From NCBI GenBank assembly GCA_902793465.1, contig CADBDT010000006.1, positions 18,975 to 82,974 of the forward strand: 64,000 bases of DNA, given 5' to 3'. This document shows positions 23,680 through 58,442 of this stretch, piece after piece. Each line of letters opens with the position of its first letter. The stretch's first letter is position 1. The DNA is from an uncultured Coriobacteriaceae bacterium (lineage in GTDB: Bacteria; Actinomycetota; Coriobacteriia; Coriobacteriales; Atopobiaceae). Both the position numbers and the translations under genes were made by a program. The notes below the pieces were generated by a model. That model saw only the letters and a program-made list of their open reading frames with translations, did no database searches and was not told the DNA's origin.

Positions 23680-23985
23680 CTAGCCCGGAGCCTGCCCCTA
23701 CGCAATGGCCTAAACCGCGAGGCGCCATGGAAAGCAGCCGCGCGCAGTTCCGCAGCGTAGCGAGGGGCAACCATAAAGGTTAGGGGCACCCAACTCGCGT
23801 GAGGAGCGGAGCGACCGCGTGTGCAGTCTTCGCAGCGAGGGGCAACCAAAGAGGTTAGGGGCACCCAACTCGCGCGAGGAGCGTAGCGACCGCGTGTGCA
23901 GTCTATGCGAGGACTGTTTGAGCACGGCGCTTGTCCATGGCGCCGAAAGGTTTAGGCCATTGCGTAGGGGCAGGCTCCGGGCTAG
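23680..23985. repeat. Family B hairpin element, copy 4, expanded by an internal tandem repeat
   Basis: The outer arms are 37 nt and exactly complementary (left begins CTAGCCCGGAGCC, right ends GGCTCCGGGCTAG). The family core is present in reverse orientation but is split by two tandem copies of a 75-nt sequence (23759-23833 and 23834-23908). It is the longest element in the window. Confidence 0.9.
23759..23908. repeat. Two tandem 75-nt units inside a family B core
   Basis: Both units begin AGCGAGGGGCAACC, contain GGTTAGGGGCACCCAACTCG and end GACCGCGTGTGCAGTCT; they differ at about six positions. The sequence was not seen elsewhere in the window. Confidence 0.85.
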
Positions 23986-49074: not shown

Positions 49075-50142
49075 CTAGAACTGACGCAGGAAGCGCATGT
49101 CGCCTTCCATAAGCATGCGCAGGTCGGGCAGGTCGTAGCGAAGTGCTGCCACGCGCTCCACGCCAATGCCAAATGCAAATCCGGTGTACTTCTCGGGGTC
49201 GATTCCCACGTACTCAAACACGTTGGGGTCAACCATGCCGCAGCCCAGGATCTCCAGCCAGCCCACGTTCTTGCAGAAGCGGCAGCCTTTGCCGTGGCAT
49301 ACGCCACAGCTCACGTCTACCTCGCAGCTTGGCTCGGTAAACGGGAAGAAGTGCGGGCGGTAGCGCGTGGCGCGCTCCTTGCCAAAGATCTCGCGGCAGA
49401 AGTAGTCGAGCGTGCCCTTTAGGTCGCCAAAGGTTATACCCTCGTCCACAACAAGGCCTTCTACCTGCGTAAACTGCGGGAGGTGGTTTGCGTCTGCCGT
49501 GTCGGGGCGAAACACCGTGCCCGGGCAAATCATGTAGATGGGGGGCTTGTTTTCCTCCATGTAGTGCACCTGCATGCCCGAGGTCTGCGTGCGAAGCAGG
49601 ACGTCGGAGTCGCCTAGCTGCAGCGGCGGCTTGCCTTCGGGCGCGTTGTCTACCACGTAGAACGAGTCTTTTGCGGAGCGGCTCGGATGGTTTTCGGGAG
49701 CGTTGAGCGCGGTAAAGTTGTAGTAGGTGGTCTCCACGTAGGGACCGTCTGCCACAATGTAGCCAAGACCGCAGAAGATATCCTCTATTTCCTCGCGAAT
49801 CTGGTTTATGAGGTGCTGCGTGCCCAGGCTTATGCGACGGCCGGGCAACGTTACGTCGGAAGCCTCGGCCTCCATGCGCTCGAACATGAGCTGCCTTGTG
49901 AGCTCCGTCTTGCGTTGTTTGAGCGCCTCGTCCACGTTCGCGCGCACCGTGTTGGCAAGCTTTCCCATGGTCGGGCGCAATTCTGGCGGAATCTTGCCCA
50001 TCATACGCATTATGGTTGTGAGCGAGCCCTTTTTGCCCAGCACCTTTACGCGCAACTGCTCGAGCGCATCCATAGACTCGGCCTGCGCCAGGTCTTGGAT
50101 AACTTTGGACTCAATCGCCTCGAGCTCTTCTTGCATCGACAT
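49075..50142 (-). CDS. pheS: Phenylalanine-tRNA ligase alpha subunit
   Basis: A 355-residue catalytic subunit. An N-terminal coiled coil (about 1-85) binds the tRNA; the class II catalytic core follows, with HPSRSAKDSFYV (motif-1 region), LLRTQTSGMQVHYM, FTQVEGLVVDEGITFGDLKG and the motif-3 GIGVERVAALRYDLPDLR at about 328-345. FFPFTEPSCEVDVSC and a CxxC...C cluster (VCHGKGCRFCKNVGW) form the small loop seen in many bacterial PheS. The ATG at 50142 follows AGGAG. The gene is preceded by a T-box leader (50150-50460), so expression should rise when uncharged tRNA-Phe builds up. Confidence 0.97.
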   Translation of the reverse strand: MSMQEELEAIESKVIQDLAQAESMDALEQLRVKVLGKKGSLTTIMRMMGKIPPELRPTMGKLANTVRANVDEALKQRKTELTRQLMFERMEAEASDVTLPGRRISLGTQHLINQIREEIEDIFCGLGYIVADGPYVETTYYNFTALNAPENHPSRSAKDSFYVVDNAPEGKPPLQLGDSDVLLRTQTSGMQVHYMEENKPPIYMICPGTVFRPDTADANHLPQFTQVEGLVVDEGITFGDLKGTLDYFCREIFGKERATRYRPHFFPFTEPSCEVDVSCGVCHGKGCRFCKNVGWLEILGCGMVDPNVFEYVGIDPEKYTGFAFGIGVERVAALRYDLPDLRMLMEGDMRFLRQF

Positions 50143-50149
50143 CTGCTAA

Positions 50150-50460
50150 CTCCTCCTCCATACAAAAAACCGCCCCTGCATCTGCGCGTTTGCGCAGGTC
50201 CAAGGACGGACGTATCCGCGGTACCACCTCGGTTGAGCACATCGGTTGTCGTGTCCGAGCACCCCACTCGTTAGTCCCGTGTCGTGGGACGGACGGCTTC
50301 CCTACTGAGCGCCTCATGCGACGCCGTTGAGGTCGCGGCTGCTAGAGTGAACTCTGCGCGTCACCTTTGCGGACACCTCTCAGCCAATGGGCGCCCTCTC
50401 TGTGGCTCCGGCATTCAACGCGCAAACCTCTCCGTCATTGCCATGAAGCGCTAGGATAGC
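50150..50460 (-). ncRNA. T-box leader (tRNA-Phe sensing) of pheST
   Basis: The minus strand carries the conserved T-box AGGTGGTACCGCGG (50229-50216). A terminator stem ending GCAGGGGCGG followed by six Ts (about 50180-50161) lies just before the pheS ribosome binding site. Upstream is a stem I-like region; the triplet TTC followed by A (50351-50349) is a good candidate for the Phe specifier codon. T-box leaders bind uncharged tRNA and let transcription continue. Confidence 0.92.
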
Positions 50461-50949
50461 ACAACTTGGAGAGGCTTAGCTTGGCAGCGTATGGTTTCTG
50501 CACGTTTCCCGTTTTTGAGCGCGCAATATGCACGCCGTTGCGGGACGTAGCGTGCGTCTACACGCACCCACGTGCATTTGGGTTGGCCCCACTGCTGGAA
50601 ATGCACGCCGTTGCGTGGCGTTGGCCGGACTGCACGCAGCCACGTGCATATTGTCTGTGTCTGCCATGGGAAACGCACGCCAGTGCGTTACGTCCGTCTT
50701 ATCTTCACGCAGTTACGTGCATTTGATCCGCGTCCGCCACGCAAGATGCACGCCATTGCGGGGTGTTGCGCTTGTCTGCACGCAACGACGTGCGTTTGGG
50801 CTTTCTACGCACCAGGAAACGCACGCCAGTGCGTGGCGTTGGCCGGACTGCACGCAACCACGTGCATTTGGGGTCCTTCCGCGGCGGGAAATGCACGCCG
50901 TTGCGGGACGTCGCGCGCGACTGTACGCACCCACGTGCGTTTTGGCGCG
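50461..50949. other. Gap filled by a regular tandem array
   Basis: Between the T-box leader and the end of the HAD gene there is no gene. The region 50528-50940 is the array described separately; 50461-50527 may contain one more decayed unit and should also hold the pheS promoter. Confidence 0.6.
50528..50940. repeat. Array of six degenerate 49-50 nt units with constant 23-nt spacers
   Basis: Units start at 50528, 50601, 50673, 50746, 50819 and 50891 (steps of 72-73). Each begins ATGCACGCC or ACGCACGCC and ends CGTGCAT or CGTGCGT. All five spacers are exactly 23 nt, mostly beginning TTG and ending GAA, with variable middles. Around most spacers the flanking bases form perfect inverted repeats such as CGTGCATTT...AAATGCACG. 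The period is not a multiple of three, so it is not a coding repeat. Confidence 0.9.
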
Positions 50950-51774
50950 CTAGTCCGCAAACGGCCAGTTGCCAGCAGCAAGGCTCTCAATCGCGGCGGT
51001 AACGGACTCGTCCTCGCAGCTCCCGAGCCGCCAGCGCGCGACCGCAGCAGCCTCCGGGGCGGCATCGCGCACCACCGCGGAGTTAGGAACATGCGCGAGC
51101 ATGGCAACGTCGTTTCCGCCATCGCCAAACACCACGACCTGGTCTTTTCCTATACCCAGCGCATCGCACAGGACATCGATTCCGCTGGCCTTGCTCCATC
51201 CCGGGGGCATTATGTTTAGGAAGCCCTTCATGGGCAGGTCGAAGTCGACGCCATCTACCTGCGAAGACAACAGCTCCTTTACCTCGCGCGTATACTGCAG
51301 GCTGCCCGCCACAAACACGTTGGCCTTGTCCATGTTGTGATTTGGCACGTCGTCTACTGCCTGTGATTGCCTGGCATAAACGGGAAAGGTTTGCGCAAGA
51401 TCTTCCACGCCACCCACCACCAGCTGCGGAATGCCATTCTCAAAGCAGATAAGCCCAGCATGCGGAACGTCCGCAAGTATCTTTACCACGCGAACAAGAG
51501 GCTCCCGCGGCACAAGCTCCCGATGGATAAGCTTGCCGTCCAAAAACACCTCCATCCCATTTGTGGCCAAGCACGTGGCACTGCAGGCAGCGTCTCCGCC
51601 AAAGAGCTCCGGAATGTGAGAGAAGCCCCTTCCGCTGGCTGGGCCAATGCGAATTCCGGCATCGAGCGCCGCGTGGAAAGCCGCGCGCGTACGGTCGCTC
51701 ACACTCGTCCTGCCATATGGAAGTATGGTTCCGTCAATGTCCGTAAGGATGAGCCTAATGTTGTTTTCTGCCAC
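50950..51774 (-). CDS. HAD-superfamily hydrolase, Cof type
   Basis: A 274-residue cytoplasmic phosphatase of the Cof/YbiV-like branch of the HAD superfamily, which dephosphorylates sugar phosphates, nucleotides or cofactors. Motif I is LILTDIDGTI (nucleophile Asp about 12), motif II is GPASGR, and motif IV is VVVFGDGGNDVAML, with a C2-type cap between about 85 and 195. It starts with GTG after GCGAGG. It lies 11 bases downstream of the esterase gene, the third gene of the nagA-esterase-HAD unit. The substrate is unknown; the neighbourhood with NagA hints at a sugar phosphate, which is inference. Confidence 0.9.
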   Translation of the reverse strand: MAENNIRLILTDIDGTILPYGRTSVSDRTRAAFHAALDAGIRIGPASGRGFSHIPELFGGDAACSATCLATNGMEVFLDGKLIHRELVPREPLVRVVKILADVPHAGLICFENGIPQLVVGGVEDLAQTFPVYARQSQAVDDVPNHNMDKANVFVAGSLQYTREVKELLSSQVDGVDFDLPMKGFLNIMPPGWSKASGIDVLCDALGIGKDQVVVFGDGGNDVAMLAHVPNSAVVRDAAPEAAAVARWRLGSCEDESVTAAIESLAAGNWPFAD

Positions 51775-54829: not shown

Positions 54830-55302
54830 GTTTCCTCCTCATGCCTTGTTTAAATACGTGGGCTATTATACGAGAAGTCCAGCAATTGTTACATAGTTTG
54901 CGCGCACGTGGCACGCCCACGTTGCGCGCCCGGCAGCCCCGGACCCTCCCGCACGGCCAGCACCCGCAGGCGCACGTGGCAGCCGCCGAATTCTTCTGCA
55001 CGCTCAGCGCTCACTGCGTTCGCTCACTCGCTTCGCTCGTGATTCGCGCCCACGTTGCGCGCCCCGGCGGTCCCCGGACCCTCCCGCACGCCCAGCACCC
55101 GCATGGCGCACGTGGCAGCCGCCGAATTCTTCTGCACGCTCAGCGCTCACTGCGTTCGCTCACTCGCTTCGCTCGTGATTCGCTGCAGAAGAATTCGGCG
55201 GCTGCCACGTGCTTGTGATTCGCGGCGGGAGAGTTCGGGGGCCGCCGGGACGCATGGAATTCGCGGCGGGAGAACGGAGTGCCCTCCGCCCGCCGCTATT
55301 GT
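54830..55302. other. Intergenic region with tandem family C elements
   Basis: Most of this 473-base gap is a tandem duplication of about 133 nt containing two family C cores (54914-55180), the second completed by a right arm to 55212. I see no gene. Confidence 0.6.
54914..55212. repeat. Tandemly duplicated family C elements, copies 4 and 5
   Basis: Two direct repeats of about 133 nt (54914-55046 and 55047-55179) each hold a left arm and the 47-nt core. Only the second has a right arm: 55108-55136 and 55184-55212 are exactly complementary over 29 nt (GCACGTGGCAGCCGCC...). In the first copy the core runs straight into the next repeat. Confidence 0.9.
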
Positions 55303-58131: not shown

Positions 58132-58442
58132 CAAACGGACAGCGCCTGAGCCCAGAGGACGCTCAAGCGGAGGACGGTGCAGAAGGATGCCCGCGCGCAG
58201 TTCTCTGCGAAGGATAGTGGGCTTTGCACCCAGGACAGGCTGTCCGAAGAGGGGTGCCGTGAGGGGATACTCCCCTACGGGTACGTCGCGGATAGACCGA
58301 TGCGCAAGGGAATCCCGACCCGCGACGTACCCGATGGGGAGTATCCCCTCACGGCACCCTATTCCATCACGAGTTTTCGGACAGCATACCGACCTGTCCG
58401 TTCTCTGGGCTCAGCGCCCTGCTGCGCCAACTCCCTGCCAGC
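58132..58442. other. Intergenic region filled by nested palindromes
   Basis: Nearly the whole 311-base gap belongs to one nested structure: outer arms CTGAGCCCAGAG (58147-58158) and CTCTGGGCTCAG (58405-58416), then GGACAGG/CCTGTCC, then the family A element. The left part between the outer arm and family A resembles a degraded family B core (GCGCGCAGTTCTCTGCG). Confidence 0.7.
58240..58384. repeat. Family A element, copy 7, with terminal inverted repeats
   Basis: It begins CTGTCCGAA and ends TTTTCGGACAG. Inside, 58252-58359 form the palindrome GGGTGCCGTGAGGGG...CCCCTCACGGCACCC, with the family signatures GGGGATACTCCCC and CGGGTACGTCGCG. The loop is about 30 nt. Confidence 0.88.

Follow-up and report, generated by a model that had tools for sequence, protein, structure and literature searches.

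What is the regular repeat array upstream of pheS in an uncultured Coriobacteriaceae bacterium, and which of its properties is conserved? The array lies in the window, a 64,000-nt stretch of DNA taken from a 3.1-Mb genome (G000). The original prediction described it as six units of 49-50 nt separated by constant 23-nt spacers. This regularity is real. Units beginning with ATGCACG or ACGCACG start at positions 50528, 50601, 50673, 50746, 50819 and 50891, giving successive distances of 73, 72, 73, 73 and 72 nt, and the spacers are 23 nt long. Tandem Repeats Finder reported the same array at 50522-50942 with a period of 73 and 5.8 copies. The half-site core defined below has 18 matches in the 64-kb window compared with 3.6 +/- 1.9 in shuffled sequences, so the window array is far from a chance arrangement.

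The natural module is a 19-nt half-site, CACGCAnnnRCGTGCRTTT, rather than the 49-50 nt unit proposed originally, because arrays begin and end in either orientation and can contain odd numbers of half-sites. In each site, three to four free bases lie between the head box (ACGCA), which is conserved, and a tail box with a TTT end. What was called a unit consists of two half-sites facing head to head, and what was called a spacer is made up of the linker joining tail-to-tail half-sites and a few further bases. The whole array (50526..50942, no strand assigned) contains 12 half-sites in strictly alternating orientation, with start-to-start distances of 35 (or 34) and 38 nt in turn and a period of 72-73. 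Half-sites 1, 3, 5, 7, 9 and 11 are on the minus strand at 50526..50544 (CCCGCAACGGCGTGCATAT), 50599..50617 (CACGCAACGGCGTGCATTT), 50671..50689 (AACGCACTGGCGTGCGTTT), 50744..50762 (CCCGCAATGGCGTGCATCT), 50817..50835 (CACGCACTGGCGTGCGTTT) and 50889..50907 (CCCGCAACGGCGTGCATTT). Half-sites 2, 4, 6, 8, 10 and 12 are on the plus strand at 50561..50579 (CACGCACCCACGTGCATTT), 50633..50651 (CACGCAGCCACGTGCATAT), 50706..50724 (CACGCAGTTACGTGCATTT), 50779..50797 (CACGCAACGACGTGCGTTT), 50851..50869 (CACGCAACCACGTGCATTT) and 50924..50942 (TACGCACCCACGTGCGTTT). We rejected a coding repeat, since the 72-73 period rotates the reading frame at each 73-nt step and no gene model falls on any array. A 141-codon open frame spans the window array and is taken as a chance feature of GC-rich DNA.

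The array is flanked on one side by pheS (49075..50142, minus strand) and its apparent T-box leader (50199..50447, minus strand), which was weakly confirmed (43 bits, E 5.5e-8, a score below the Rfam gathering threshold). On the other side is a gene that we named from its sequence as a HAD-like phosphatase (50950..51774, minus strand), whose stop codon lies 7 nt off the array end. The suggested link to pheS or its T-box did not hold up: the 41 other arrays described below adjoin unrelated genes, and the congener G002 has the same gene order in its syntenic HAD-pheS interval with no array there. Another congener, G004, has a different intergenic repeat at the same place upstream of pheS (locus L122), composed of ACCGCTGCGGGT palindromes in both orientations. 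Elsewhere in the window there are two near-identical tandem duplications, one of 136 nt at 54914-55183 (2.0 copies, 96%) and one of 75 nt at 23759-23904 (1.9 copies, 94%).

The original prediction proposed searching for the unit elsewhere in the genome, and this search revealed a large family. The window-array DNA used as a query matched more than 120 places in G000. The half-site pattern occurred 357 times with at most one mismatch (control, 1) and 481 times with at most two mismatches (reversed control, 34). We mapped 42 arrays with 4-26 half-sites each and 445 half-sites in total; this map consists of the fetched array regions and leaves out about 11 half-site matches at other loci. Neighbouring half-sites nearly all alternate in orientation. 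Spacings are exactly 35, 38 or 73 nt in 376 of 403 cases, where 73 corresponds to one missing half-site. Among the other spacings, 17 are off by one and there are single changes of -10 and -11.

All G000 arrays lie outside predicted genes, as judged with our own codon-usage gene caller and by reading the neighbouring proteins by eye. Array ends fall anywhere in the unit, and few arrays have common flanks. Because most array flanks are unrelated, we rejected the idea that the G000 arrays belong to a larger composite element. A near-perfect palindrome of about 115 nt, with parts GGGGATACTCCCC...GGGTACATCGCG / CGCGATGTACCC...GGGGAGTATCCCC, adjoins four arrays and is a separate dispersed repeat. 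We counted roughly 30 copies of it in about 320 kb of G000, including one in the window at ~58246-58368 (L097 15221-15343) and others at loci L063, L066, L068, L076, L078, L092 and elsewhere. The arrays are unevenly distributed in one region, with seven in 42 kb of contig C1 (85-131 kb; simulation P 0.001). AbiE-like and Fic-like genes, judged from sequence, are also found in this stretch.

We compared units across the family and found that their parts are conserved very differently. The identity of the core between any two units is 97.5% at every level of relatedness. Linker identity is 60-67% inside one array and 43% between arrays, and the free nnn triplet within the half-site drifts at the linker rate. 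A 92-column alignment of 74 units had zero gaps; these 92-nt pieces were preselected for standard spacing, and the lack of gaps therefore speaks to how well the linkers fit, whereas rigidity is measured independently by the spacing count given above. The nearly invariant core next to drifting linkers and triplets indicates that each half-site and its spacing are under selection in place. Selection at the level of the nucleic acid, which had been proposed from the window array, was thereby borne out. The linkers share a polar consensus, and their polarity is mostly uniform inside an array. It is therefore probable that arrays expanded as a directed 73-bp unit was duplicated in tandem.

We examined related genomes for the same architecture. 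Outside the G000 species the exact half-site is all but absent: it has 357 copies in G000, whereas no other genome of the class, among 397, has more than three, cross-genome counts of this kind relying on exact-pattern searches. A head-box-only pattern (TGCGT-17/18-ACGCA-43/46-TGCGT) gave 107+107 matches on the two strands of G000 and 73+70 in the congener G003 (control, 3+2), and 0-2 per strand elsewhere. G003 arrays have a period of 72 and half-sites CGGAGGTTT and CGGAACTTT, also written ACGCAnnnnCGGA(S)GTTT and ACGCAnnnnCGGAACTTT. The two types often form adjacent arrays, a recurrent arrangement that contrasts with the mostly unrelated flanks in G000. At many G003 loci, the tail types CGGAGG and CGGAAC are directly side by side (L170 15440-16158, L255, L260, L253, L254), and beyond such paired arrays come a GC-rich end common to these loci and a GGCCGAAAGGGGCCTAGCCCC palindrome. 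Assemblies were fragmented, with G003 contigs often terminating in arrays. The congener G012 contains ACGCAnnnnCGGA(S)GTTT-like half-sites with a period of 63; its head-to-head step is unchanged, but its tail-to-tail step is 28 rather than 37, a shortening by roughly one helical turn. The periods of 63 and 72-74 correspond to approximately six and seven turns of B-DNA. Another congener, G005, has one small array of three half-sites spaced at exactly 35 and 38, and traces amounting to a short array or a single unit were seen in G007, G008, G009 and, from another genus, G355. The matches from one search of genome contigs were judged to be chance. Across these sequences, the tail box varies from species to species and from one adjacent array to the next, and the head box and period appear constant. 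Most congeners have few arrays or none, and array positions are not common between genomes. An essential host role is thus unlikely.

The inverted repeats are an obvious feature of these arrays, and they invite an explanation based on structured RNA or a DNA cruciform in which the spacers are hairpin loops preserved by compensating changes. This was the central claim made for the window array, where the T/C choice matches across the spacer in four of five cases and within the unit in two of six. We confirmed that tally, and the two arms do change together between species. Covariation analysis within G000 and G003 found no compensatory signal for either spacer or unit pairing. Watson-Crick combinations at the two variable purine positions made up 45% and 43% of 181 spacer pairs compared with 49% and 48% expected, and 53% and 46% of 188 within-unit pairs compared with 49% and 51% expected. 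A.C mismatches were as frequent as expected in both sets. The match in four of five spacers is therefore small-number noise, given 43% against an expected 48% over all 181 such pairs in the genome. Folding a single strand of the window array as RNA gave a structure no better than shuffled sequences (z -0.75), and no Rfam family in the window reached its gathering score. Covariation in G003 is confined to the positions that separate its two array types, and the three to four bases between boxes are unpaired there on either side. With neither covariation nor excess folding, base pairing is not the conserved property. The hairpin reading is largely refuted, and we regard a structured RNA or cruciform as most unlikely. 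A neutral minisatellite, in which tandem units were merely duplicated and drifted, fits the greater similarity of linkers within arrays than between them. Drift of that kind should not spare the core while the linkers diverge, indels are nearly absent, and relatives keep the architecture with a different sequence. The uneven conservation refutes such neutral drift, an account that we find hardly credible.

The remaining alternatives concern elements that act for themselves or for their neighbours. Half-sites could be recognition sequences for a transposase or recombinase that copies the units as passive, selfish, non-autonomous elements with no host function. Species-specific bursts, the missing array at the syntenic site of G002 and the cluster of seven arrays all agree with this account, as does a tyrosine recombinase gene (phrog_1, E 9e-25) that has an array as its neighbour in G000 and again in G003. 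Recognition at the time of copying alone, however, would not maintain half-sites that are intact throughout long, diverged arrays. None of the RAYT genes of the genus has these half-sites at its flanks, which carry different inverted repeats. The recombinase is found on one side of the array in G000 and on the other in G003, and chance alone should yield about 0.8 shared neighbours. Selfish copying is in our view rather unlikely, though arrays are gained and lost between species. The recombinase itself (L073 2736-3932, L233 659-1861) is divergent and barely recognised by Pfam, and we found no viral or plasmid relatives of it. Its G000 and G003 copies are 66% identical, but we rejected it as a partner of the arrays because of this opposite placement, which is within chance expectation. 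A phage or plasmid origin of the arrays was also rejected: viral contigs contained no four-box match, and there was no plasmid match. A regulatory or insulating element for neighbouring genes, such as the operator array of a regulon, would explain the intergenic, operator-like sites and the location of many arrays close to the 3' end of the upstream gene in same-direction pairs. Against it, we recognized no common function among the flanking genes, as judged from their sequences. These genes form 24 same-direction, 8 divergent and 6 convergent pairs, an unbiased distribution resembling that of all G000 gene pairs (192:41:31). We consider local regulation very improbable.

We favor a model in which the arrays probably form a dispersed, non-coding, BIME-like family of helically phased bipartite sites for cooperative protein binding. 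Among the functions listed in the original prediction, a protein-binding array and rotational phasing fit best, and a structured RNA does not, for the lack of covariation and of excess folding. In the model, a sequence-specific protein, probably dimeric or built of two domains, would bind each site as double-stranded DNA, and neighbouring protein molecules would touch along one face of the helix. Such contacts would explain why the boxes and their spacing are kept while the linkers drift. Arrays would grow and shrink through tandem duplication of the 73-bp unit and would spread to new intergenic sites. Their role may be at the level of the chromosome, for example in bridging, supercoil control or nucleoid anchoring, roles of the kind suggested for the gyrase-binding BIME-2, instead of the regulation of one neighbouring gene. 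The predicted protein and its cooperativity are proposed from sequence constraint, and the helical-phase argument builds on periods of two classes, 72-73 and 63, together with some irregular spacings. If the model is correct, the variation of the tail box by species and by adjacent array means that the specificity of the recognising protein must have shifted too. One contact surface of this protein may be stable while the other evolves, or paralogues may be involved; G003 carries both site types. A bolder proposal, which we advance only tentatively, is that these alternating bipartite sites, spaced family-wide at whole helical turns in dozens of intergenic lattices, belong to a previously undescribed nucleoprotein system. 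On that reading, retention of the head box and exchange of the tail box would imply a line of descent of DNA-binding proteins whose specificity diverges.

If the model is true, it would extend BIME-like interspersed systems beyond the RAYT/REP world and into gut-type bacteria. It would do so with unusually clear evidence that selection acts on the double-stranded sequence of a site and on its helical phase, and not on the structure of an RNA or a hairpin. Sister species that share the layout but exchange the tail box would offer a natural experiment on how a DNA-binding protein and its hundreds of target sites alter their specificity in step. The long-standing question of BIME function would become testable through the discovery of a single protein.

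We compared the arrays to known repeat systems. CRISPR loci resemble them in the regular alternation of units of about 50 nt with 23-nt spacers, but the units here have a mean column identity of 76% and form inverted pairs, the apparent spacers share a polar consensus, and none of the flanking genes looked like cas when judged by eye from sequence. Iterons and the partition (centromere) arrays of plasmids consist of protein sites phased with the helix. The arrays described here are similarly phased, but more than 40 of them are spread over one genome assembly. BrickBuilt of Porphyromonas gingivalis is a MITE with an internal minisatellite, in which a 23-nt head-to-tail repeat without spacers lies between a conserved leader and tail (PMC4596501). 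Like BrickBuilt, our arrays are intergenic, species-limited and internally repetitive; unlike it, their units alternate, and most array ends have no common leader or tail of the kind that, with terminal inverted repeats, marks such a MITE. REPINs and RAYT-borne REPs are likewise paired inverted modules dispersed between genes. We rejected a RAYT origin or REPIN identity because the RAYT-like genes of the genus end in other inverted repeats, and at the loci examined no half-sites flank RAYT-like (Y1_Tnp) genes, including the single one in G000. This gene (L051 1060-1960; G000:C10:73102-73428) is flanked by its own palindrome, CCTCTCAAGGGGGAGTACCCCTCTTGATTGG. Y1_Tnp genes are present in 15 of 16 genomes of the genus, many with private flanking inverted repeats. 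The arrays are thus not CRISPRs, a known RNA family, RAYT-associated REPs, a BrickBuilt-type MITE or a neutral minisatellite. Our search of the literature, whose coverage was incomplete, found no described counterpart in this bacterial group.

The REP/BIME clusters of enterobacteria and Xanthomonas offer the nearest comparison. These clusters are extragenic, reach high copy numbers through species-specific expansion, and consist of short alternating elements with two alternating linkers (PMC2817692, PMC3733652). The G000 family is similarly extragenic and exceeds 100 copies, with 445 half-sites in 42 arrays and none in a predicted gene, and its modules alternate at regular spacing. It differs in other respects. 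REP modules are palindromic, whereas the half-site here has an imperfect dyad in G000 only, and a single half-site of the congeners is non-palindromic (ACGCAnnnnCGGAGGTTT; ACGCAnnnnCGGA(S)GTTT in G003 and G012). The foot tags GTAG and CGTC of REP elements are found in 21.6% and 0% of the 445 half-sites. The very rigid whole-turn period and the lack of covariation also set our arrays apart. BIME-2 elements are tandem alternating REPs that bind DNA gyrase (PMC2817692). By analogy, the arrays described here seem most like BIME-2, which we adopt as the closest working likeness.
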